IMG/VR virus record: IMGVR_UViG_3300037189_005046
Coordinates: 1-23,479 of that record
DNA: 23,479 nt
DNA from: a virus
Reading direction: 5' to 3' (one strand)
Under the pieces are notes generated by a model. That model was given only the letters and a program-made list of their open reading frames with translations, made no database searches and was not told where the DNA came from. How positions within the stretch are numbered: the stretch's first letter is position 1; each line of letters begins with the position of its first letter. Of this stretch, positions 4,177 to 20,306 are shown piece after piece. A program made the position numbers and the translations under genes.

Positions 4177-5199
4177 ATGGCCCAGATTAACAAAAAGATG
4201 GGTGCAGATGTAGTGGTTATGGGTGAGGACATTCGTGCAGACCTCATTACCCGTTTCACTAGTGGCTCAGTAACCTACGACTACATTCTTGGTGGTGGGT
4301 TTCCTGCTAACCAGTGGCATGAGCTTCGTGGAGAACCAAGCCATGGTAAAACCGCTCTAGCTCTAAAGACTATTGCTGCCAACCAGGCCATTGACCCAGA
4401 CTTTACTACCGTTTGGGTAGCTGCAGAGCAGTGGGTTCCAGACTATGCAGAGATGTGTGGCGTAGATGTATCCCGTGTAATTGTGGTTGAGACCAACATC
4501 ATGGAGGAAGCCTACGATGCTGTACTAGCATTTGCTGAGTCTAAGTCTGTAGATGCAATTGTTGTTGACTCCCTGCCTTCTCTCGTACCTTCTACTGAGG
4601 ACGAGAAGACTATGGAAGAGGCAACCGTAGGTCGTGGAGCACTACTTACTAACAAGTTCTTCCGCAAGGCTGGTGCTGCCATGAAGCGTAGCCTAACCGA
4701 GGCAGAGCGTCCAATTCTAGGTATTATCATTAACCAGTGGCGTTCACAAATTGGTGTGATGTACGGAGACCCTCGTACTACTCCTGGTGGTAAGGGCAAG
4801 GACTACGCCTACTTCACCATCACTGAGGTCCGTCGTAAGGACTGGATTAAGGTTGGTTCTGGAGATAACGAAGTCAAGGTAGGTCAGCAGATTGTAATGA
4901 AGACCACCAAGAACAAGAGTGCCCCACCATACCAGACTGCTGCAGTTGACTTTTACTTCAAGGAGCACAGTATCTACACTCCAGGTGAGTTTGACGTTGC
5001 CAAAGAAATTGTGGCTATGTCTATCATCAACCAAGTTGTAGAGCGTAAGGGTGGATGGATTTACTACGCAGACCGTAAGTGGCAGGGTGCAGATGCATTT
5101 GCTAATTCCGTACGTGAAGATGTAGAATTGTTTGAAGAGCTTCGCAAGAAGGTCTTAGACAACCAAATCACTTTCCTTAAGGAGGAAGAGGATGAGTAA
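4177..5199 (+). CDS. recA: RecA-like recombinase/ATPase
   Basis: 340 aa. It probably forms filaments on ssDNA and drives strand exchange in phage recombination and repair. Walker A is GEPSHGKT (52-59). The catalytic Glu is E84 (VAAEQ), at the place of E. coli RecA E96. Walker B is DAIVVD (126-131). The L2 region and following strand (INQWRSQIGVMYGDP... TTPGGKG, 185-208) align well with RecA, as does the C-terminal part (KNKSAPPYQTA, YTPGEFDVAKE, KGGWIYY). The acidic tail ends EEEDE. Relative to bacterial RecA the N-terminal helix is short and the P-loop reads GEPSHGKT instead of GPESSGKT. The ribosome binding site is weak. The 3' end contains a strong AAGGAGGA that serves the next gene. Confidence 0.92.
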   Translation: MAQINKKMGADVVVMGEDIRADLITRFTSGSVTYDYILGGGFPANQWHELRGEPSHGKTALALKTIAANQAIDPDFTTVWVAAEQWVPDYAEMCGVDVSRVIVVETNIMEEAYDAVLAFAESKSVDAIVVDSLPSLVPSTEDEKTMEEATVGRGALLTNKFFRKAGAAMKRSLTEAERPILGIIINQWRSQIGVMYGDPRTTPGGKGKDYAYFTITEVRRKDWIKVGSGDNEVKVGQQIVMKTTKNKSAPPYQTAAVDFYFKEHSIYTPGEFDVAKEIVAMSIINQVVERKGGWIYYADRKWQGADAFANSVREDVELFEELRKKVLDNQITFLKEEEDE

Positions 5200-5413
5200 G
5201 ATGAAGGAAGAATACGGTCGCATCGAGGATGAGGCCTACGAGCAGTACATTGAAGAGCAGCGAGAAGAGCTTCGTGAAGAGGGTCGTCAAGAAATGCGAA
5301 TCGAACTGCTGCGAATCATCAGTGTAGAGAAGTCCTGGAACAATCAAAGCGAAGGATTCCGTGGAGCTCTTGACTGGATGGAAGACAAGCTAAAAGGAGT
5401 GGCACGAATCTAA
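5192..5413 (+). CDS. Small charged coiled-coil protein
   Basis: 73 aa. Residues 1-45 are almost entirely E/R/Q/K in a heptad-compatible pattern (EDEAYEQYIEEQREELREEG), so a coiled coil is likely. The C-terminus carries a short WNNQSEGFRGALDWMEDKL segment. ATG at 5192 overlaps the recA-like stop by eight bases and is preceded by AAGGAGGA about six bases away. A second ATG at 5201 would also work. Function unknown. Confidence 0.75.
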   Translation: MSKMKEEYGRIEDEAYEQYIEEQREELREEGRQEMRIELLRIISVEKSWNNQSEGFRGALDWMEDKLKGVARI

Positions 5414-5622
5414 TGTGGATTAGTAAGAAAAAGTTTAACGACAAGCTTTACCTAAAAGAGTACAATGCTCGTCGAGAAGAGTGGACTCGCCAGGAAGAGT
5501 CTCGTCAAAACATTCGTATTAGCGAACTAGATAGGCGTATAACCTCCCTAGAAATTAAGGCTGGTCTAAAGTTAGAACCAAAGTCTTGTTGTTGCGGACC
5601 TGAAGAAGTGGCTATTGGCTAA
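5413..5622 (+). CDS. Small basic coiled-coil protein with C-terminal CCC cluster
   Basis: 69 aa, not recognised. Residues 1-50 are strongly charged and helical (KEYNARREEWTRQEESRQNI), followed by KSCCCGPEE near the C-terminus. Three adjacent cysteines could bind a metal or be lipid- or redox-reactive; nothing more can be said. It is coupled at both ends: TAATG with the gene before and an eight-base overlap with the nuclease gene after. Confidence 0.7.
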   Translation: MWISKKKFNDKLYLKEYNARREEWTRQEESRQNIRISELDRRITSLEIKAGLKLEPKSCCCGPEEVAIG

Positions 5623-5947
5623 GTCAGAAGGTCAGAAGCAGTCCCAGAAGCATGAAAAGCGTATCGCTAAAGCCATTGGAGGGCAAGTGAACGCTGCTTC
5701 TGGGGCCTTTTGGTCTCGTAAAGGGGATGTTCGTAGCCAGGATTTACTGGTGGAGCATAAATGGACTGGTAAGAAGTCAAAGACTATTACTGCCGCAGAG
5801 CTAGAAAAAATTACCAACGAAGCCATCATGGATGGTCGCACACCTGTATTTGGAATTCACCTAAATGGTGAGGACTATGTAATTCTATTAGAGACAGATT
5901 TCCTAGAATTGCGAGACCGACTTGCTCGAACACTTCCAGAACAGTGA
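5615..5947 (+). CDS. PD-(D/E)XK nuclease, Holliday-junction-resolvase-like
   Basis: 110 aa, TTG start at 5615 overlapping the previous gene by eight bases. No ATG or GTG in frame fits better. The order E14 in a helix (KHEKRIAKAIGG), then SGAFWSRKGDVRSQD (D38, D43), then VEHKWT (E47-x-K49) is the catalytic layout of small PD-(D/E)XK nucleases of the Hjc/resolvase type. A strand-helix part (PVFGIHLNGEDYVILLE) completes the fold. It likely cuts branched DNA or other recombination intermediates. The junction specificity is inference from size and motif layout; a different structure-specific or single-strand nuclease is possible. A second, unrelated RuvC-type resolvase lies at 8382. Confidence 0.7.
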   Translation: MAKSEGQKQSQKHEKRIAKAIGGQVNAASGAFWSRKGDVRSQDLLVEHKWTGKKSKTITAAELEKITNEAIMDGRTPVFGIHLNGEDYVILLETDFLELRDRLARTLPEQ

Positions 5948-6263
5948 CTTTAGCTGGCATCATGAAGCAGAATGTAATGGCATTGAAGACCCTGATATTT
6001 TCTATCCCCCTAGGGATAAAGACCTATACAAAGTCATTGCTACGCAAGCAAAAGAATATTGCTTTGGCAATGGCGAAACTCTACCGTGCCCTGTTAGACT
6101 TAACTGTCTTTGGGAAGCAGTCAGAACCGATGAAGACCATGGCATTTGGGGAGGGCTTTCCCATCGAGAGCGTAACGCTCTGGTACGAAAGTGGCAACGC
6201 AAATACCGCACTAAAATGACTCTGAAAGAGTACATCTTTCAGTTAGAGAAGGGCAAGAAGTGA
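5922..6263 (+). CDS. WhiB-family iron-sulfur regulator with unusual Cys spacing
   Basis: 113 aa. It has the four cysteines C18, C47, C56 and C62, the CPV...CLWEA helix and the GIWGG turn (74-78) of WhiB proteins, followed by a basic C-terminus (RKWQRKYRTK) that could contact DNA. The spacing C47-x8-C56-x5-C62 differs from the usual C-x2-C-x5-C because of a FGNGETLP insertion. WhiB proteins bind a 4Fe-4S cluster and work with the primary sigma factor in actinobacteria. The TTG at 5922 is the only early start: an in-frame TAG lies at 5904, and no other start codon occurs before C18. It overlaps the nuclease gene by 26 bases and its stop overlaps the next GTG. Confidence 0.85.
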   Translation: MLEHFQNSDFSWHHEAECNGIEDPDIFYPPRDKDLYKVIATQAKEYCFGNGETLPCPVRLNCLWEAVRTDEDHGIWGGLSHRERNALVRKWQRKYRTKMTLKEYIFQLEKGKK

Positions 6264-7120
6264 ACACTGATTTAAAGAAGTTCTTGGATGCTAAGGCACG
6301 TCCAAGTCGTCTCCTAGGAGATATTGAACGTCACCTCATGGCACGACCAGTAGGTGACCGTAGTACCACGGTGCTACACCCGTCTGAAATTATTAAGCGT
6401 GACTGGTGCAAGCGTGCATCATACTTCTTGCTCAATGGAGAGACCAAGATAGCTGAAAAGCCACCACTCCGTCTGCAGTCTATCTTTGACGAGGGGCACT
6501 ACATCCACGCCAAGTGGCAGAGCTACTTCCAGGAAATGGGAGTATTGCACGGAATGTTTAAGTGTGACGTATGCGACCACATTACTTGGGGTACCTCGCC
6601 TTCTGAGTGCGGTACTTGCCAAGCTCCAGCAAAGAAGCTGGTATATGCAGAGGTAACTTTGTTCGATGATGCTCTACGTATCAAGGGCCACACTGATGGT
6701 TGGATTCGTGGAATTGGTCCTGACACTCTAATCGAGATTAAGTCCATTGGCCCAGGCACTATCCGTGCAGAAGCACCTCAGTTGATGCAAGCTGCAGACG
6801 GCGACTTCATGAAGGCATGGGGACAGATTAAGCGTCCTTTTGGTTCTCACGTATTGCAGGGGCAAATGTACCTAGAGCTTATGAAGCGTATGGGTATGGA
6901 GAACTCTGAGGGTAATCCAATTGACGAGATTACTTTTCTTTATGAACTAAAGGCTGACCAGTCGTACAAAGAGTTTAACGTCAAGGCTGATTACGAACTT
7001 GTGCGTCACATCTTTGATGCAGCAGAGCAGTTAATGCGTGACATTGACAACAACCATGTACCTAACTGTGTAAACGGTCCTGATATGCGTTGCAAGCAGT
7101 GTGCCCCATATGAACAGTAA
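6260..7120 (+). CDS. Cas4-family PD-(D/E)XK exonuclease with inserted zinc ribbon
   Basis: 286 aa, GTG start in a GTGA overlap. The RecB/Cas4 nuclease core shows HPSEI...DWC (40-50), a helix with H80 and H83, GHTDGW (143-148), LIEIKS (E159, K161) and QGQMYLELM (Q200, Y204). A single N-terminal Cys (C50) and a C-terminal trio (C270, C278, C281) match the 4Fe-4S layout of Cas4. An extra four-Cys ribbon, C102-x2-C105 and C117-x2-C120, is inserted before the GHxD motif. Such phage nucleases degrade or trim DNA ends in recombination. No CRISPR array is in the window. It sits between whiB and small replication genes. Confidence 0.85.
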   Translation: MNTDLKKFLDAKARPSRLLGDIERHLMARPVGDRSTTVLHPSEIIKRDWCKRASYFLLNGETKIAEKPPLRLQSIFDEGHYIHAKWQSYFQEMGVLHGMFKCDVCDHITWGTSPSECGTCQAPAKKLVYAEVTLFDDALRIKGHTDGWIRGIGPDTLIEIKSIGPGTIRAEAPQLMQAADGDFMKAWGQIKRPFGSHVLQGQMYLELMKRMGMENSEGNPIDEITFLYELKADQSYKEFNVKADYELVRHIFDAAEQLMRDIDNNHVPNCVNGPDMRCKQCAPYEQ

Positions 7121-10632: not shown

Positions 10633-10997
10633 TGTCATACTCATTTGATGGTCGTTACGACTATACCAAGCCATGGGTAACTAACAACCCATCGGAAAAT
10701 GCTACTGCACCAAGTTGGTCATACACAGGACCTTGGTCATCCAACATGGAACGACTAACTCAGCAAGCTCTGATGGTTATGACTATTCCAGGTGCACAGA
10801 TTCAACAGATGGTAAAGGCACCTTTGCCACAGATTAGACTTTTCCCAGACCGTTTTGGTTTTGGAAACAGAACACAACCAGACATCGAAGATGTCATCAG
10901 TCTAGACAGAATATACCAGGAGCCACGAGTTTCGTGGTATTCTGGCTCCCCTGCAGGGTATTCTGGTAGTAGTAGAAATAGTTTGGAAGGTATCTAA
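10632..10997 (+). CDS. Trp/Tyr/Ser-rich protein of unknown function
   Basis: 121 aa from ATG at 10632. An in-frame GTG at 10623 would add three residues; I prefer the ATG because it overlaps the previous stop. The N-terminus is rich in Trp, Tyr and Asn (PSWSYTGPWSSN) and the C-terminus in Ser/Gly/Tyr. The centre has an amphipathic helix (MERLTQQALMVMTIPGAQIQQMV) and a strand-rich PQIRLFPDRFGFG. Not recognised. Coupled to the next gene by TAATG. Confidence 0.75.
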   Translation: MSYSFDGRYDYTKPWVTNNPSENATAPSWSYTGPWSSNMERLTQQALMVMTIPGAQIQQMVKAPLPQIRLFPDRFGFGNRTQPDIEDVISLDRIYQEPRVSWYSGSPAGYSGSSRNSLEGI

Positions 10998-12625
10998 TGG
11001 CCGCTGTCAATGAACACGCAGGAGAACTTGCGTCTTATCAAGCTAAGTACCCTCGGCACCCAAAGGATTCTTCAGGTCGTCCAGAGAAACCTCACAGCAC
11101 CTATAATGCTTATGAGGAATCTTCTATTAACTTAACTCCTCAGCAAGCAGAGCAAAACGCTCATGCTGACAGAGCAGCCCAAGATTTTGATTTTCAACAG
11201 CGTGAAGCACGGGCTAAAGCAAACACATCTAGTCCAGTACGTAATTCTAAGATGGACGCAGACCTAGAAGCCAAGCTTCAGGCTGAACTTCAAAGAGTAA
11301 ACGCAAAACCTACTGCAAAACGTGCAACTCGTGGTAGTGGCGTTCCTACTACAGGAAATGGGACTCTTGTAGAGGCTCTTCCAGGAAAACGTTTTGGACA
11401 GCACCTGCACAAAAATCACCAAATAATGAGTGGTATTGTAAATGAGCTAAAGGCATCAGATGACCCTGGACTACAAGCATTTGCAACAATGGCTAGTGTT
11501 CACCTACACGGTGACCCAGCAAATGAAGAGGGCCTAGATGGTGCACGAGACCACATTGACGAGGGTGACCGCCTTCTTGGTACGGTTACTGGTCAAGATA
11601 AAGGTAAAGAACATTACGTAAAAGCTGCTCAGCACATAAAGAATGCTGCAGATATTTTGTCGCACCCATACGTTCAAATGACCGCCAAAAAGAACAATAT
11701 AAATGCAGAAGTACCTAGTATGGACCAAACTCACTCTGCAGTTGAAACCCTTGGTCGTAAACTTAAGTCAAATCCATTTCCAGAAATGAGTATTGGTGGA
11801 AAACCTTATGACGCTAACTCTGAACAAGCATTAACCTATCACACTAATGCCGCTAAATTAACAGGTGCTGAAAAAGTTGATGAAGCCGTAGCTAGGACAG
11901 TAACTAAGAGCAACTTAGCCCGTAGAGGAAGCAGTCGTGGAGGATTTAAAGTAGACCGCACAACTCCGCTTACTCCTGAAGAACGTAAAGCTCTTATGGA
12001 CAACCCAAATAAGTTGCCAAAAAATAGACGAGCTGAACAAGCAGAGCGTACAGGTGACCTAAATGGAGTTCCAACTCCAATAGCAGGGCCACACCTTCCA
12101 GGATACGGCACTGCTAAGAAAAACCTAGGAATAGAAGGAGCTAAAGCAGTAGTTCCTAAACTTATTGCTCAAACAAAGGCACCTACACCAAGACTTAGCA
12201 AGGCAGAAAAAGATAATCTAAGTTTAGCTGACAGAGCTAAGCTAGGAACATTGCCTCGTAGTGAAGAAGGTGAGGTAACTAGCCGTGAACGCAACATGCA
12301 ACTAGTTACTGGTAAGGCTAGCAAGGAACGCAGAACCGCAGTGTTCCATTCTGCTGCTCAAAATAACGTTCCAGACATTATGGGTAAGCCAGAGATTGGA
12401 CCAGATGTAGGTTCTCAAGTAACTCCTGAATTGCCAAAGCCAACAAAACCAGTAGTTAACAGCCCTACGCAACCTGCAGGTTCTAAAACCACTATTGTAG
12501 GAAACCTTTCTGAAGGTGTACTTGAAAAAGACGCTGCAAAAATCCGCAAAAGGGGCATGATGCCAATTTTGTACCCTACAGTACGTAGCGATGTACGTAA
12601 CGACGGCAAGAAGGGTGGTCTGTAA
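10997..12625 (+). CDS. Long basic, partly helical protein of unknown function
   Basis: 542 aa, not recognised. Residues 1-120 are polar and likely disordered. Residues about 135-255 form a helical part rich in His (FGQHLHKNHQIMSGIVNEL, ARDHIDEGDRLLG, AAQHIKNAADILSH). The rest is Pro/Lys-rich with short conserved-looking patches. LPGY at 367-370 followed by GIEGAKAVVPKLIAQ recurs in the next gene, and RLSKAEK (399-405) recurs in the gene after that. No catalytic motif or membrane segment. Size, position and composition would suit a virion-associated or DNA-binding protein, but this is inference. Start overlaps the previous stop. Confidence 0.8.
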   Translation: MAAVNEHAGELASYQAKYPRHPKDSSGRPEKPHSTYNAYEESSINLTPQQAEQNAHADRAAQDFDFQQREARAKANTSSPVRNSKMDADLEAKLQAELQRVNAKPTAKRATRGSGVPTTGNGTLVEALPGKRFGQHLHKNHQIMSGIVNELKASDDPGLQAFATMASVHLHGDPANEEGLDGARDHIDEGDRLLGTVTGQDKGKEHYVKAAQHIKNAADILSHPYVQMTAKKNNINAEVPSMDQTHSAVETLGRKLKSNPFPEMSIGGKPYDANSEQALTYHTNAAKLTGAEKVDEAVARTVTKSNLARRGSSRGGFKVDRTTPLTPEERKALMDNPNKLPKNRRAEQAERTGDLNGVPTPIAGPHLPGYGTAKKNLGIEGAKAVVPKLIAQTKAPTPRLSKAEKDNLSLADRAKLGTLPRSEEGEVTSRERNMQLVTGKASKERRTAVFHSAAQNNVPDIMGKPEIGPDVGSQVTPELPKPTKPVVNSPTQPAGSKTTIVGNLSEGVLEKDAAKIRKRGMMPILYPTVRSDVRNDGKKGGL

Positions 12626-12628
12626 TAA

Positions 12629-13402
12629 ATGGCCCAGAAAAGAAGTACCAATAAAGCTCAGCAACGTGGCCAAGCTGCTCAAGCAAAAGTAACTAACGCC
12701 GAACCAGCAGCCGCTCCAAAGCCAAAGGGTTCAGCAAAAACTCCTGCAGCAGTTCCAGGAACTCCTACTCGTGTTGAACGAGCTCGTCAGAATAAGTCTG
12801 CTGACTTGATTGCAAAATCAGAGGCAAGTGGAGTACCAGTGCCACCTAGCCGTGTTCCTCGTACTGGATACATTCCTAAGCCACAAGCTGCAGCTAAACC
12901 ACGTGGAAAAGTAGCTGCACAAAAAGCAACCGATGCTGCGGCAGCACAAGCTGAATCTGAAAAGAAGTCAGCAGATTTTCTTGAAGCAGGGCGTGCTCAC
13001 GGAGACGTGTCTATTTTGCGTAACCTAGCCATTAATGAGCACGCAAAGCACGTTAAAATGATTAATCAAATGAAAAAGAAATTTCCTGCGGTACCTGCTA
13101 TTCAAGCCTTGCAGCCTAAGACTCTTGCTCAAATTACTCAGGAATTAGCACAGCAACCAAAGCCTGTTAAACACGTAAAAATGACTCCTACAAAGACAGA
13201 AAACTTTGAACTAAACAAGGGTCTTGTCAAAAACGTAGACATGAACACTCAGTTGCTAACACCACTTGCTTCACGTAATTCAACTGTTGAACTACCTGGT
13301 TATGAGGCAGAAAAACGTAAGCCTGCGGGTATTCAAGCTGCTAAAAAAGCTGTTCCTTTCCTAGTAGCCCAGGCAAATAAACTGCCTAAGCAACCAAACT
13401 AG
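12629..13402 (+). CDS. Ala/Lys/Pro-rich basic protein, partial paralogue of its neighbour
   Basis: 257 aa, not recognised. The first 110 residues are an Ala/Lys/Pro/Gln-rich basic stretch (AQKRSTNKAQQRGQAAQAKV), probably disordered and possibly nucleic-acid-binding. A helical segment follows (NEHAKHVKMINQMKKKFPAV). The C-terminus, LPGY at 222-225 and then GIQAAKKAVPFLVAQ (234-248), matches the preceding 542-aa protein at 367-392 with a one-residue spacing change. The two genes therefore probably share a module by duplication. Very low acidic content in the N-terminal half. Confidence 0.75.
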   Translation: MAQKRSTNKAQQRGQAAQAKVTNAEPAAAPKPKGSAKTPAAVPGTPTRVERARQNKSADLIAKSEASGVPVPPSRVPRTGYIPKPQAAAKPRGKVAAQKATDAAAAQAESEKKSADFLEAGRAHGDVSILRNLAINEHAKHVKMINQMKKKFPAVPAIQALQPKTLAQITQELAQQPKPVKHVKMTPTKTENFELNKGLVKNVDMNTQLLTPLASRNSTVELPGYEAEKRKPAGIQAAKKAVPFLVAQANKLPKQPN

Positions 13403-13411
13403 GAGTAACTA

Positions 13412-15436
13412 ATGGCAAAAATAGTAAGCTATGTTACTAGAGAAAAATACAATGCGGCATTAGCTGACCGTGATGCTAAAAAAGAAGCAGGTATTTCTAA
13501 AAACGAATTAAGTGAAGTTAATTCGAATCTAAATTTATTAAAAAATCAACGTGCCTGGCAGCTTAAACATCCTGTACATGGCCCAATTCTTCGTCAGTTA
13601 GATGGAGACCCTGTCACGAGTGCTCCTCAAACTAGCGTTCCTGCTCCTGTAGATAGCCCAAATGTAGGGCAGCAATTGGCACCTGCTGTTCAGGAAAATA
13701 TTAACGGCCCTGTTAAATCACGTTCTACAGCTACTACTACCAGGGCCCGCTATGATAATGCTGACCTTATGGACAAGAAAGAAGCTCCTGAAAAGTTTTG
13801 GGTTACTCCTGGACACCATGACCACGGTGACAACTTAAAGTTTATTAGTAATGGTCTTGAGCACGCGGTTTCTCTTTTTAGCAGACATTTTAACCCAGAA
13901 AATGACCCTAATCACCCTAGTGCTAAAATTATTGACCAAGCAAACAAAGAGCTGTATGCTGCTGACAAGCATCTCGATAATCATTACTATAACCACAAAC
14001 GTGGTGGAGCACTATCGGCTTCTTCACACCTAAACGCTACTGCGTTGAGGCTATCTCGTGTTGCAAATCTTCTTTCTGAAAATGGAATGACCAAAACTCC
14101 AGTACTTAGTTCAAATGTTGGAGAAAAAGACAAGTACGAACTTCGTAATATGTCAGACTTGGTAGGAATTGCTAACAGAACTACAAAAGACTATTCAAAG
14201 TACGCTGATAACAACTCTGGGGTTGCAAAAACTCCAGATTCATTTACTAGTAATGAGCGTATTCCTCTAATTGGTGGACCAGACCCTGCCCGTCTCAGTA
14301 CTGCAGAGAAAAACGAGCGTAGTCAGTACACCAAGAAACTGACTCCAGCTGAAGAAGCATCTGACTGGAACCTACGAGCCAAGTCCGCTGCCCCAACATT
14401 TGAAGCTACTCCTTGGAGTCCAAGCCCAGCCCGAGTTGTAAAGCTGCACACTACGGGTGAAGGTATTAGTTACCCAGTACGTAAAGTAGACCAGTTTGGT
14501 AGAGAACTAGGTGCTGGAACTTCTAGAACTGAATCTGTAGAACCTAAATCTGTTAACCCTGAAAAGTTTCCGATGCTTCCAAAAGAACTTGAAGCAACAG
14601 GTGCTGTAGATTACACGTCAGCACGTAAATACCGAAAAGGGTACGGAAAAGAACTTGCTAGGGTAGTTAGTGATGTTCGAGCTGCCAGAAATACAGTTGT
14701 TGGCTCAAAGATATCAGAAACTCCTAACAGACTTATTCCAGATAGAGAAGTTGCGGAAAGCAGTAGGGGCACTGTACGAGCTAACATTCAAAAAGCTGTA
14801 AATTATGTTGCAGAAAAAAGTCTGTTTCCTACTGCAAGCAATATATTGCCAGGTCGAAAAGATGCAGCACTAGACGCAATACGGTTGGCACATACCCACT
14901 TTAATCAAACTCATGACAAAATTGACAATGGCCAGCTTCCTTCAGAAACTGACCCAGCAGATGTATTACCAACTCACATAAAGAAACTTTTGGGACCTCA
15001 CGGCACTGACCTTGCAGTACGTTCGTACCCAACTTCTAAATGGAACTCTGCTAATATGGCAAAGCCTGAAGCGTCTTCTAACAGGGAGGAAGAATCAGCT
15101 CCTTCCGATGTAACATCTGCAACAGTAAATAACTTTTTTGAACAAAGTCCAGGTATTCGTAGGCCAAGTTCTGCAATTATGGGAGCTATGGCTAAGGCAG
15201 ACGCCTCAGAAAAAGTTATGAACCAGGTTCACTCTCACATTGCTAATGGTAATCTTGCATTGGCTGCAAAAACTCACTATAACCATTTTAACGAGGGTTC
15301 CAGTGTTCCGTTTACACAGACCGCCGCTCACAAAGACCCTGAAGGTTATCTCCGTGATGCTGGAATGTCTCGCAGACTAGACGAAGCAAAGCCAACTAGA
15401 GGACAACGCATGAGCTCAGCGTTTAGAGGAGAATAG
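13412..15436 (+). CDS. Large protein of unknown function with His-rich helical repeats
   Basis: 674 aa, the longest unassigned gene here. The ribosome binding site AGGAG lies about nine bases from the ATG. Residues about 130-230 form a His-rich helical region (GHHDHGDNLKFISNGLEHAV, ANKELYAADKHLDNHYYNH, SASSHLNATALRLSRVANLL). Similar helices with spaced His recur near residues 485-515 (AHTHFNQTHDKID) and 610-640 (VHSHIANGNLALAAKTHYNH). RLSTAEK (294-300) resembles RLSKAEK in the 542-aa protein. Long polar linkers separate these parts. There is no known enzyme motif. It may be an internal virion, scaffold-like or host-takeover protein; I cannot decide which. Confidence 0.8.
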   Translation: MAKIVSYVTREKYNAALADRDAKKEAGISKNELSEVNSNLNLLKNQRAWQLKHPVHGPILRQLDGDPVTSAPQTSVPAPVDSPNVGQQLAPAVQENINGPVKSRSTATTTRARYDNADLMDKKEAPEKFWVTPGHHDHGDNLKFISNGLEHAVSLFSRHFNPENDPNHPSAKIIDQANKELYAADKHLDNHYYNHKRGGALSASSHLNATALRLSRVANLLSENGMTKTPVLSSNVGEKDKYELRNMSDLVGIANRTTKDYSKYADNNSGVAKTPDSFTSNERIPLIGGPDPARLSTAEKNERSQYTKKLTPAEEASDWNLRAKSAAPTFEATPWSPSPARVVKLHTTGEGISYPVRKVDQFGRELGAGTSRTESVEPKSVNPEKFPMLPKELEATGAVDYTSARKYRKGYGKELARVVSDVRAARNTVVGSKISETPNRLIPDREVAESSRGTVRANIQKAVNYVAEKSLFPTASNILPGRKDAALDAIRLAHTHFNQTHDKIDNGQLPSETDPADVLPTHIKKLLGPHGTDLAVRSYPTSKWNSANMAKPEASSNREEESAPSDVTSATVNNFFEQSPGIRRPSSAIMGAMAKADASEKVMNQVHSHIANGNLALAAKTHYNHFNEGSSVPFTQTAAHKDPEGYLRDAGMSRRLDEAKPTRGQRMSSAFRGE

Positions 15437-16753: not shown

Positions 16754-16773
16754 ACTAGTTTGTATGACTAGTT
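16753..16773 (+). promoter_or_regulatory. Hairpin with the start codon in its loop
   Basis: AACTAGT (16753-16759) and ACTAGTT (16767-16773) form a perfect 7-bp inverted repeat. Its 7-base loop, TTGTATG, contains the ATG at 16764 of the nucleotidyltransferase-like gene. There is no Shine-Dalgarno sequence at the usual distance. The structure is seen directly; a translational role is inference, and the stem is AT-rich and not very stable. Confidence 0.35.
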
Positions 16774-17663
16774 ATAACCCTACGTCGTACTTTAGTACGC
16801 CAGCCCCACAGCTAGACCCTACTTTATTTGAAGGCAGGGCTCTAAAGTCATGGGTGCGTAATGGTATTAACCAATTGCTACACGGGTTTCTAGCACAAAA
16901 GTTTCGTCATGCAGAACTATGGGCACACCCATGGTTGGCAGGTAGTGGCGTTTCATACCAGTGGTCTGCGGCAAGAATGCCAGGAGATTTGGATTGCCTA
17001 GTAGGCGTAGACTTTATTCAGTTTCGTCAAGCTAACCCTGAATACCGTGGACTAACTGACCGAGAAGTAGCTGACCAGTTAAACGAAGATTTTAGGGCAG
17101 AACTTCAACCTCAGACTGAAAACTGGAATGGTTACGAGTTAACTTTTTACGTTAACCCACAAGCTACAGATATTACTAATATCAAGCCATATGCTGCGTA
17201 TGATTTAAAGTACAACGAGTGGACAGTTCCACCAAACCCAACGCAAGAAGCACCACGTAATCCAGAGTGGGATTCAATTGCTGTATCAGATTACACCTCA
17301 GCCCACCAAGCGTATATTCGTGCAACCAAAGCAATGCAAGATTTAGAAATAAATACATCTGCAGGGCCGCAGCACAGAAACTCGCAAACTGCATTACAAG
17401 CAGCATACCAGCAGGCAAATGCATTGTATACAGAGATACACAGCCAAAGGTCAGAAGCATTTACGCCAAATGGAAAAGGCTACAATGATTTTTATAATTA
17501 CCGTTGGCAAGCAGCTAAACGTAGTGGAGCAATTGATTTGTTGAGAGAAGTCCGCAACGCAGCGGCAGCCAGAATAGGCACAGATATTAAGTCTATTTAT
17601 GGGGTAGACTTCCCAGATGCATCAACGTTAATTCGTCGAGCAGCGTTGTATAGGAATAACTAA
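16764..17663 (+). CDS. Putative nucleotidyltransferase-fold protein
   Basis: 299 aa. Residues 59-78 (AGS, 13 residues, D75-L-D77-C) fit the polymerase-beta superfamily signature hG[GS]x(9-13)Dh[DE]h. A later strand with E125 (YELTFYV) could give the third acid. An N-terminal helix pair (LKSWVRNGINQLLHGFLAQKF) precedes it, as often seen in minimal nucleotidyltransferases. Residues 180-240 are helical with many Gln/Ala. If active it would move NMP groups onto a nucleic acid, protein or small molecule; the substrate is unknown. The call rests on one motif read by eye. Its stop overlaps the next ATG. Confidence 0.5.
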   Translation: MTSYNPTSYFSTPAPQLDPTLFEGRALKSWVRNGINQLLHGFLAQKFRHAELWAHPWLAGSGVSYQWSAARMPGDLDCLVGVDFIQFRQANPEYRGLTDREVADQLNEDFRAELQPQTENWNGYELTFYVNPQATDITNIKPYAAYDLKYNEWTVPPNPTQEAPRNPEWDSIAVSDYTSAHQAYIRATKAMQDLEINTSAGPQHRNSQTALQAAYQQANALYTEIHSQRSEAFTPNGKGYNDFYNYRWQAAKRSGAIDLLREVRNAAAARIGTDIKSIYGVDFPDASTLIRRAALYRNN

Positions 17664-18172
17664 TGAGTAAAGTAATAGCAGTTGTTATGGCATTGAGCGT
17701 AATGTCAGCGGTAGTTACTGATTGGAATTTGCCAGTAAAAGTAATTACTCCTGGAGTAACTAACCCAGCAGTGACTCAAGCTAACATTCAAAGTACTATT
17801 TGCGTAAGTGGATGGACAGCAACTATTCGTCCCTCGTCATCGTACACAACTAATCTAAAAGCCAAGCAGCTGAGTGATGCATACCAGTATGAGGTAGCAG
17901 CATACGGTACAGATTTGGGTAATTATGAGGAGGACCACCTAATTAGTTTAGAACTAGGCGGCAATCCAACTGACCCAAAAAACCTATGGCCACAGCCATA
18001 CGCAGGACAAAATAGCCACAAAAAAGATGCGTTAGAAACTAAGTTGAAGACCTTAGTTTGTACAGGCAAGATTAAGCTGGCAGTAGCACAAAAAGCAATT
18101 GCAAGTAACTGGGTAAATGCATACAAAACCTACGTAGCACCAATTCCTGCAATTACAATAAAAGGAAATTAG
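17663..18172 (+). CDS. Predicted secreted HNH-like nuclease
   Basis: 169 aa. The N-terminus MSKVIAVVMALSVMSAVVTD looks like a signal peptide or an uncleaved anchor: one basic residue, then about 15 hydrophobic residues. The mature part has the layout of a secreted HNH-like nuclease family found in bacteria: EDHLISLELGG (H92), then NLWPQP (N107), then SHKKD (H119), matching the three HNH positions. C47 and C133 could form a disulfide, consistent with export. The C-terminus (VCTGKIKLAVAQKAIASNW) is typical of that family. It would cut DNA outside the cytoplasm or at the envelope; the target is unknown. Stop overlaps the next GTG. Confidence 0.7.
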   Translation: MSKVIAVVMALSVMSAVVTDWNLPVKVITPGVTNPAVTQANIQSTICVSGWTATIRPSSSYTTNLKAKQLSDAYQYEVAAYGTDLGNYEEDHLISLELGGNPTDPKNLWPQPYAGQNSHKKDALETKLKTLVCTGKIKLAVAQKAIASNWVNAYKTYVAPIPAITIKGN

Positions 18173-18267
18173 TGTCACTGTTAGATACGTGCCGTAATTG
18201 CGGTCACGAATTGTATAAAAACATTTGTGTAGAAGACAACTGCAAATGTGATTGCTACGAGGAGTAA
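18172..18267 (+). CDS. 31-aa Cys-rich peptide
   Basis: Short frame with a GTG start overlapping the previous stop (TAGTG) and ending three bases before the next start. Six cysteines in 31 residues: C7-x2-C10 (CRNC), C19, C24, C26 and C28, the last three as CKCDC, then an acidic end. The GAGGAG at 18259-18264, inside its end, is the ribosome binding site of the next gene. Metal binding is likely; function unknown. It is a second tiny Cys-rich frame besides the one at 7110. Confidence 0.5.
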   Translation: MSLLDTCRNCGHELYKNICVEDNCKCDCYEE

Positions 18268-18270
18268 ACG

Positions 18271-18756
18271 TTGCAAATATTGGTAGATATATCTGGAGTA
18301 TTACGTGGCCCAGGAGATGAGCCTATTGGCACAGGAATTCTAATGATTGGAACACTAAGTGTGTACAATCGTTTGACATTCATGTCACCGACAACAGAAG
18401 CAGAAACTAAGTTGTGGCTAAACCTGAATAAGGTTGTTGATTATGATTTGATTTATGGTTCATCAGTGCACCTCGAAGGTGAGAACCTGGCAGAACGCCA
18501 AATAAAGGTAGCCCGTTCCAGGGGACCTATTGATTTATTTATTACAAATAACCCAGAGCTATGGGCGTATGCATTTGAACTGGGTATTCCATCGGTAATG
18601 TTTGGAGTACCAAGTTATACACGGCCAGAGTTTAGGCCAGATGCCCCGAAGAAATTCCGTAAATGGAACGATATCGAAGAATCAATTAATCGTCAGAACG
18701 TACTGAGAACTGAAGATGCTAGATTGACTCGTACAGAGGGGTTGATGTTTGAGTGA
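18271..18756 (+). CDS. HAD-like hydrolase-fold protein
   Basis: 161 aa, TTG start six bases after GAGGAG. ILVDISGVL (D5) at the very start has the form of HAD motif I, with Ser7 where the second Asp of DxD normally stands. LTFMSPTTEAET could be the motif II region, and DLFITNNPELWAYAFELGIPSVMFG near residues 88-112 resembles the later HAD strands. The usual acidic motif IV is not obvious. It may be a phosphatase or nucleotidase of altered chemistry, or an inactive HAD fold. Its stop overlaps the GTG of the TGT-like gene, so the two are translationally linked. Confidence 0.5.
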   Translation: MQILVDISGVLRGPGDEPIGTGILMIGTLSVYNRLTFMSPTTEAETKLWLNLNKVVDYDLIYGSSVHLEGENLAERQIKVARSRGPIDLFITNNPELWAYAFELGIPSVMFGVPSYTRPEFRPDAPKKFRKWNDIEESINRQNVLRTEDARLTRTEGLMFE

Positions 18757-20243
18757 TTGTTTTTAGTGGGGTTGAGATACCAAGTAACAGAACGTTACTG
18801 GAAGCAGCAGGCGTAGAACACGTCATGCTGAATTACTGGGGATTACGGAAACGTGGATTGCCAAAGACAAAGCAATACTATATTGCAGAGCATTTCCTAC
18901 CAGATATGAAAGTATGGGTAGATTCGGGAGCTGTTCAAGCGGATAAAGCAAATTTATCGCAGCGAGAATTAGAAGATTACGCAGCAGATTACGAAGATTT
19001 TATTGCAAATAACTACGACCGTATTGAAGGTTGGGTTGAGTTTGATTCCCAAGTAATGGGCTTGCCATGGATTGTAAACGAACGCAAAGCGTTTGAGCGT
19101 GACCCAAAGATGATTGTAGTATGGCACGAGTCGTACAACAAGCAATTGATTTATGAATGGGCAGACGCCTCATACCAGATTGCATTTCCAGGCGACGTTA
19201 TAGAAAATATAACATCCTTAGCCACAGTTGCAAGAGATTGCCAACGTCTATTCGGTACAAGATTTCATGCATTAGCCACAGCAAAGCCAGATAACCTACG
19301 ACAGATTCATTTTGAGACAGCAAGTACGTTGTCATGGTTGTCGCCAATGCGTCGTGGAGAAACAATTATATGGGATAGCACCAAGCTGGTACGTTATCCA
19401 AAGAGTATGAAAGACCAAGCACGTAAACGATATAAAAATATTGTTGAAGGTGCGGGCCTAGATTTTCAAAAGTTTATTGAAGATGATACTAAAGAAGCAA
19501 CCAAAGTTGCAGTATGGTCATACCTACAGTTAGAAAGCAAAATGGATAAAGATAAACCAAAGCTCACAGTCATCCAGGGTGAGAAAGTATCTGATAACAG
19601 TGATGATACCCTATACACTGGTTTGATGGAAATGGAGGGGTACCTTTCTAATAACAGTGGTTCTGAGATGCGGAAAGTTGAACGTCAAGAAGTAGTACAA
19701 AGAGACCCAAATGAGGTCACTTCAATGCCTGTTTTTGGGTATCAGATGAAGTCTGTTGTAGAGAATGAAAATGGCCGAGACGTACTCAAAGATGTGCCAG
19801 TAGTACAGAGCCAATATGCAAGTTTACGCCAATGTAACACCTGTTTTGTAGCCGCAAATTGCCCTGCATTTAAGGAGAATAATACGTGTGCATTCAACCT
19901 TCCAATAGAAGTAAAGACACCCGAACAGCTAAAGGCAATGAACACAGCGTTACTAGAGATGCAGGCTCAAAGAGTAGCATTCATGCGGTATACAGAGGAA
20001 TTGAACGGTGGTTACGCAGACCCAAACGTGTCTCAGGAGATGGACCGATACTTCAAGATGTTGGAGAAGTTGAAGGCCCTGGACGAGTCCAAAGAGTTCA
20101 TTCAGATTACTGCCCAAAAGAATGCCAGCCAAGGTGTTCTAAGTGCGATTTTTGGTGACCGAGTACAGGCCATGAAAGACAAACCACAGATAATTTCAGA
20201 GGAAAAAACCACCATGATTATTCGAGATAACATCGAAGGATAG
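18753..20243 (+). CDS. TGT-like barrel protein fused to a four-cysteine domain
   Basis: 496 aa, GTG start in a GTGA overlap. Residues 1-260 look like a TIM-barrel of the tRNA-guanine transglycosylase/DpdA kind: MLNYWGLRKRG, VWVDSGAVQ (D57-S-G), LEDYAADYEDFI, WVEFDSQVMG (D98), IVVWHES, then TRFHALATAKPDNLRQI. This family exchanges guanine for 7-deazaguanines in RNA or DNA; the active-site assignment is tentative. After a charged linker (about 265-350), residues 355-496 form a second domain with C361-x2-C364-x5-C370-x8-C379 and then long helices (LLEMQAQRVAFMRYTEEL). It might bind zinc or an iron-sulfur cluster. No preQ0 synthesis genes are in the window. Other alpha/beta barrel enzymes are possible. 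Confidence 0.45.
   Translation: MIVFSGVEIPSNRTLLEAAGVEHVMLNYWGLRKRGLPKTKQYYIAEHFLPDMKVWVDSGAVQADKANLSQRELEDYAADYEDFIANNYDRIEGWVEFDSQVMGLPWIVNERKAFERDPKMIVVWHESYNKQLIYEWADASYQIAFPGDVIENITSLATVARDCQRLFGTRFHALATAKPDNLRQIHFETASTLSWLSPMRRGETIIWDSTKLVRYPKSMKDQARKRYKNIVEGAGLDFQKFIEDDTKEATKVAVWSYLQLESKMDKDKPKLTVIQGEKVSDNSDDTLYTGLMEMEGYLSNNSGSEMRKVERQEVVQRDPNEVTSMPVFGYQMKSVVENENGRDVLKDVPVVQSQYASLRQCNTCFVAANCPAFKENNTCAFNLPIEVKTPEQLKAMNTALLEMQAQRVAFMRYTEELNGGYADPNVSQEMDRYFKMLEKLKALDESKEFIQITAQKNASQGVLSAIFGDRVQAMKDKPQIISEEKTTMIIRDNIEG
19585..19602 (+). repeat. 18-bp direct repeat, copy 1 (inside the TGT-like gene)
   Basis: AAGTATCTGATAACAGTG occurs here in the linker-coding part of the 496-aa gene and again, identical, at 20251-20268 just after its stop. 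Eighteen identical bases are unlikely by chance in 23 kb. Confidence 0.8.
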
Positions 20244-20250
20244 TTAAAGT

Positions 20251-20268
20251 AAGTATCTGATAACAGTG
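20251..20268 (+). repeat. 18-bp direct repeat, copy 2 (intergenic)
   Basis: Identical to 19585-19602. It lies eight bases after the stop at 20243 and its last four bases enter the left arm of the hairpin at 20265. Confidence 0.8.
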
Positions 20269-20306
20269 CCTGCCATGTATTGAAACATGGTGGGCACTAT
20301 TATTTA
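20265..20306 (+). terminator. Probable terminator after the TGT-like gene
   Basis: AGTGCCTGCCATGT (20265-20278) pairs with ACATGGTGGGCACT (20285-20298) over 14 positions, two of them G-U, with a 6-base loop ATTGAA. An AT-rich tail ATTATTTA follows. The tail is not a pure T run. It separates the accessory run from the ribonucleotide reductase gene. The remaining 100 bases (20307-20405) show no gene, tRNA or clear promoter. Confidence 0.6.

Follow-up and report, generated by a model that had tools for sequence, protein, structure and literature searches.

A DpdA-like barrel fused to a four-cysteine domain lacks the transglycosylase nucleophile in a large group of actinobacterial phages

Introduction

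In tRNA-guanine transglycosylase (TGT), Asp280 attacks the nucleotide as nucleophile and Asp102 serves as the general base (PMC6165067). Eukaryotic QTRT2 is a non-catalytic TGT subunit, in which the nucleophile is changed to Glu and which pairs with an active paralogue (PMC6165067). Among phages, the closest described relatives of the protein reported here are the DpdA proteins, enzymes that exchange guanine in DNA for modified bases, represented by those of Enterobacteria phage 9g and Bacteroides phage BS162P1 and by the solved structure 7ui4, together with BRock gp36 and GiJojo gp181, which are annotated as "dpdA-like tRNA-guanine transglycosylase." Searches of an open-access library turned up no account of the missing nucleophile, a catalytically dead DpdA or the Cys partner.

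Here, we analyzed a viral DNA stretch of 23,479 nucleotides (the window; IMG/VR virus record IMGVR_UViG_3300037189_005046), which encodes a 496-aa protein consisting of a DpdA-like barrel and a C-terminal four-Cys domain. The fusion shares with the phage DpdAs (9g, BS162P1, 7ui4) the barrel family, the DSGA motif, an Asp that corresponds to D98, a conserved His, an SxxSW segment and Gly202, but it differs from them in having Ser or Ala in place of the nucleophilic Asp, in lacking preQ0 genes and in being linked to a gene for a degenerate HAD-like protein. BRock gp36 and GiJojo gp181 are full-length homologues with the same fusion, with Ser or Ala at the nucleophile position, and with a HAD-like gene and a gene of the 299-aa type described below lying upstream; they differ from the window in sequence (about 31% identity), in an extra gene between the HAD and DpdA genes and in their annotation as enzymes. 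Like QTRT2, the fusion is a TGT-family protein retained after loss of a catalytic residue (PMC6165067), but unlike QTRT2, it has no active paralogue in the genomes searched.

Results

The 496-aa ORF (18753 to 20243, + strand) starts with a GTG that overlaps the TGA stop codon of an upstream 161-aa HAD-like ORF (18271 to 18756, + strand; overlap GTGA), which itself has a TTG start and GAGGAG upstream of it. A preceding sequence-only reading of the window had reported this overlap, together with D57 in WVDSGA, D98 in WVEFDS and C361, C364, C370 and C379, and all of these are present. In related loci with sufficient upstream DNA, the HAD gene and the 496-aa gene are adjacent, most often at a start-to-end distance of −3, 0 or −7. 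For the 496-aa gene, dN is far below dS (dS of the HAD gene is saturated), and the gene is evidently under strong purifying selection. Because the adjacency of the two genes recurs in relatives, the four Cys are conserved and dN is far below dS, neither the two-gene arrangement nor the four-Cys pattern is, on these comparisons, due to chance. The combination of a fused Cys domain and a HAD partner, which the earlier reading had regarded as unusual, turned out to be standard across a large actinophage group. Searches of Pfam, NCBIfam and PADLOC gave no useful match for the three cluster proteins.

The N-terminal barrel (residues 1 to 260; 18753 to 19532, + strand) was assigned from profile and structure comparisons. 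PHROG 887 ("queuine tRNA-ribosyltransferase") matched the 496-aa protein over its whole length (E = 1.1e-58 over residues 1 to 473), and the same family takes the DpdA of phage 9g at 7e-98 and that of BS162P1 at 7e-31. Direct profile alignment with hhalign linked the fused family to 9g DpdA (E = 1e-5) and to BS162P1 DpdA (E = 4e-5); apart from DSGGF, hhalign gave no direct profile match to Escherichia coli TGT. In a PDB sequence search with the barrel profile, the DNA-guanine transglycosylase 7ui4 ranked first among 177,635 entries as a weak match (E = 0.037), with an alignment that runs through its SIDSTT segment. The AlphaFold2 (AF2) model had a pLDDT of mostly 70 to 93 over the barrel, measured in 10-residue blocks, and low values outside it, falling below 50 over much of residues 267 to 387. 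When this model was searched structurally, the named significant matches in a viral structure library were queuine tRNA-ribosyltransferases (DpdA annotated) and one small terminase, while the top PDB matches were only generic TIM barrels. Measured against the refuting condition of the earlier reading, a best structural match of residues 1 to 260 to a non-TGT fold, the PDB fold search is equivocal, and we do not count it as proof. Taken together, the PHROG 887, 9g DpdA, 7ui4 and viral fold matches uphold the earlier call of a TGT/DpdA-like barrel. We place the barrel in the DpdA branch, an assignment that the sequence establishes and that solved structures back less firmly.

Residues His172 to Gly202 aligned to DpdA without gaps, and the nucleophile fell on Ser191 (19323 to 19325, + strand; HGFAWTEFDLLKHYPFFSVDSVTW / HALATAKPDNLRQIHFETASTLSW), which marks the loss of the catalytic residue equivalent to TGT Asp280. 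The earlier reading had overlooked this serine. We then tallied residues over 222 unique barrels, comprising 136 fused and 86 stand-alone sequences. Asp was absent from the nucleophile position in all 134 unique nucleophile-lacking fusions, which carry Ser (131), Ala (2) or Thr (1). It was present in both fusions that retain the nucleophile (L232 and L233) and in 86 of 86 stand-alone DpdAs, in a collection for which sequence fetching partly relied on the nucleophile motif; 18 stand-alone DpdA sequences outside the fetch pattern also carry this Asp. A fecal phage DpdA (MT835482, L142:2521-4719) has an apparent intein, or a similar in-frame insertion, exactly at its catalytic SSDSS / TTWLGG segment.

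The general base has drifted as well. D57 of the window (18921 to 18923, + strand) is equivalent to TGT Asp102, and the corresponding position in the 136 fused sequences is D in 64, E in 62, H in 5 and S in 3, with a gap in 2. D98 (19044 to 19046, + strand), which aligns with a conserved Asp of DpdA, is kept in 128 of the 136 fused sequences, including 126 of the 134 that lack the nucleophile, and in 86 of 86 stand-alone forms. Directly after the lost nucleophile, the nucleophile-lacking proteins share a constrained segment, SP..G[ED]TI.W....RY.K..K.QAR. Y215, K217 and R224 are each found in 134 of 134 members, K178 and D180 in 131 of 134 each, and E203 in 125 of 134. Position 203 is E or D in most members and Ala or Ser in L152 to L156, which rules out a shift of the catalytic Asp to this position as a general rule. 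In a quick tree, the nucleophile-lacking fusions formed one clade (SH-aLRT 100) on a long stem; the same tree gave no firm order of divergence for L232, L233 and this clade.

We also examined the neighborhoods of these genes for preQ0 biosynthesis. QueC, QueD, QueE or FolE was encoded within about 5 kb of 77 of 88 stand-alone dpdA loci, and none of the four was found within about 5 kb of the 213 nucleophile-lacking fused loci. Likewise, searches for QueC, PTPS and FolE in long related contigs (88 to 113 kb) and in the complete BRock and GiJojo genomes detected the positive controls and no match. A second, canonical DpdA was not found in the same phages: every nucleophile-lacking genome that was searched yielded a single member of PHROG 887. 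The absence of phage preQ0 genes is compatible with the use of host preQ0.

In the Cys domain (residues 355 to 470; 19815 to 20162, + strand), the four Cys, C361, C364, C370 and C379, form a probable metal site ahead of a helical tail. They were conserved (68 of 68), in agreement with the earlier description of this domain, and the exact spacing C-x2-C-x5-C-x8-C occurred in 135 of 136 unique fused sequences. A stand-alone homologue is encoded by BS162P1 (L003:4728-5483; hhalign E = 1.5e-13 to the fused domain). In Bacteroides-type phages, the Cys domain is a gene of its own. In BS162P1, in the fecal phage MT835482 (L142:4722-5483) and in L149 (3470-4165), the gene for a four-Cys protein of 231 to 253 aa immediately follows canonical dpdA, queC lies on the upstream side and queE on the downstream side, and further stand-alone Cys genes near active dpdA and preQ0 genes lie within the dpdA loci of L228 (5812-6573) and L230 (6749-7588). 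The two fusions with an intact nucleophile, L232 and L233, stand beside FolE/QueD/QueE or QueC. In L232, the fused active gene (4929-6782) is preceded by FolE/QueD/QueE and followed, at a short distance, by a terminase-like gene. Since the Cys domain occurs both as a separate gene in dpdA/preQ0 loci and within active fusions, the four-Cys protein appears to be a partner of active phage DpdA that annotation has missed.

The 161-aa partner had been described as a HAD-like protein with DIS in place of DxD, and this motif is present in the window as VDISGVL (D6-I7-S8). The AF2 model (pLDDT 87) and a PDB fold search agree with the HAD assignment; fold matches were HAD phosphatases, including 3ib6 and the T4 Pnkp phosphatase domain. 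Although the predicted fold is the same as in these phosphatases, the acidic residues of motifs I and IV are not conserved: Asp occupies the motif I nucleophile position (position 6) in only 18 of 65 relatives, and the acidic residues of motif IV have degenerated (TNNP/DSDP). Judged by its motifs, the protein is a pseudo-HAD without catalytic motifs of its own. Wherever the DNA of a nucleophile-lacking fused locus reached far enough upstream, the HAD gene was found; no stand-alone or fused-active locus was found to carry it.

Farther upstream, a conserved 299-aa protein (16764 to 17663, + strand) is encoded at 189 of the 213 nucleophile-lacking fused loci, and GiJojo gp178 is 37% identical to it. 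It carries a nucleotidyltransferase-type G60-S61-x13-D75-x-D77 and E125, and the G-S, the DxD and the third acidic residue are present in 116 of 116 sequences. Pfam and PDB searches returned only DUF6932, weakly (E = 0.014); the motif spacing suggests a nucleotidyltransferase fold. The gap between the HAD gene and the genes before it contains a Cys-rich 31-aa micro-ORF (CRNCGHELY...CKCDCYEE; 18172 to 18267, + strand), which overlaps the upstream stop codon by one base and is shared by 11 of the 19 relatives sampled. An ORF for a 169-aa secreted nuclease-like protein (17663 to 18172; weak Endonuclea_NS_2 match) was considered as a further part of the cassette and rejected; as it is found in just 3 of 213 related loci, it would be a recent insertion. 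A terminator-like hairpin (20265 to 20298, + strand; z = −5.9) closes the cluster before a class II ribonucleotide reductase gene.

Other genes of the window encode WhiB-like, DNA polymerase A and UvsX-like proteins besides the class II ribonucleotide reductase, and the gene order is similar to that of the Streptomyces phage BRock/GiJojo group. Given this gene content and order, an actinobacterial host is likely. At 10997 to 15436, three large low-complexity ORFs (542, 257 and 674 aa) had no family match except a weak one to a small terminase, and these are perhaps virion accessory proteins.

Discussion

We favor, with some confidence, the interpretation that the 496-aa protein is a pseudo-DpdA, repurposed and kept as a non-catalytic nucleic-acid-binding factor although its relatives are annotated as enzymes. 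The non-catalytic part of this interpretation draws on the clade-wide loss of the nucleophile, the drift of the general base, the absence of QueC, QueD and FolE from long related contigs, the loss of catalytic residues in the linked HAD and the strong purifying selection. We infer nucleic-acid binding from family membership, and the protein would work without chemistry. The sequence-only reading had raised a possible nucleic-acid modification cassette, which our data do not support: against the insertion of a 7-deazaguanine stand the missing nucleophilic Asp, the drifting general base, the lack of preQ0 genes in the loci and genomes searched and a HAD partner without catalytic motifs. That reading was probably right in its fold call and wrong in its functional call.

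The proposed history starts from an ancestor in which an active DpdA had been fused to its Cys partner. After fusion, the preQ0 genes and the nucleophile would have been lost and the pseudo-HAD gained. The barrel, possibly together with the Cys domain, would bind nucleic acid or a guanine site, the pseudo-HAD would join it as a second non-catalytic subunit, and the complex would direct or control a further factor, for which the co-conserved 299-aa protein with its nucleotidyltransferase-type active site is a candidate. More tentatively, and with considerable doubt, a base-modifying fold turned into a non-catalytic recognition subunit could form, with the pseudo-HAD and the nucleotidyltransferase-type protein, an undescribed machine for nucleic-acid processing, packaging or counter-defence.

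The protein could still be an enzyme, for instance an altered transglycosylase or a base-removing glycosidase using other residues such as E203 or D180. The new invariant residues (E203, Y215, K217 and R224) could form a different active site, and the constraint past the lost nucleophile is strong, with K178, D180 and D98 largely retained. Against this, E203 is replaced by Ala or Ser in L152 to L156, the general base is D in fewer than half of the fused sequences (mostly E otherwise, H or S in 8), and no precursor genes were found in these loci, the long contigs, BRock and GiJojo. We regard an altered enzyme as unlikely. The reading implied by the GiJojo and BRock annotations and by the name of PHROG 887, a normal, active DpdA supplied with preQ0 by the host, is contradicted by a nucleophile absent from 134 of 134 relatives and is highly improbable. 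A decoy role, in which dead barrels would inhibit a TGT or DpdA of the host by dimerizing with it, draws on the fact that TGTs act as dimers and that QTRT2, itself a dead TGT paralogue, has an active paralogue as its partner (PMC6165067), but it needs neither the fused Cys domain nor the HAD protein, and no host partner was identified; we consider it very unlikely.

A further reading is a role in packaging or DNA recognition, similar to that of a terminase small subunit (TerS), in which the Cys domain would be common to this protein and the small terminases of Gordonia phages. The small terminases of Gordonia phages Orchid and Jumbo have the same four-Cys spacing (C-x2-C-x5-C-x8-C in Orchid TerS, with a profile hhalign to the Cys region at E = 1.8e-4), and in whole-genome searches of seven nucleophile-lacking phages with phrog_6902 (TerS), the sole match was the Cys region (E = 4e-4 to 4e-3). 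In addition, no small terminase is annotated in the parts of the GiJojo genome that were read, and the fused active gene of L232 lies upstream of a terminase-like gene. However, the nucleophile-lacking gene is tens of kilobases away from the large terminase gene, the TerS similarity is weak and confined to the Cys region, with no detectable similarity between the N-terminal half of the Gordonia proteins and the fusion, and this Cys domain is also associated with active DpdA, for which a part in packaging is not obvious. We hold a packaging role to be quite unlikely and retain the repurposed, non-catalytic pseudo-DpdA as our preferred interpretation.

The annotation of a large phage family as queuine or guanine transglycosylases would imply modified phage DNA, and yet its members here lack the residue for the chemistry. 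The conserved four-Cys protein is pointed to as an unrecognized partner of active phage DpdA. With living relatives for each step, from a separate partner through an active fusion to a dead fusion carried by hundreds of actinobacterial phages, these proteins form a natural pseudoenzyme series along which one can trace how an enzyme is lost and put to new use.
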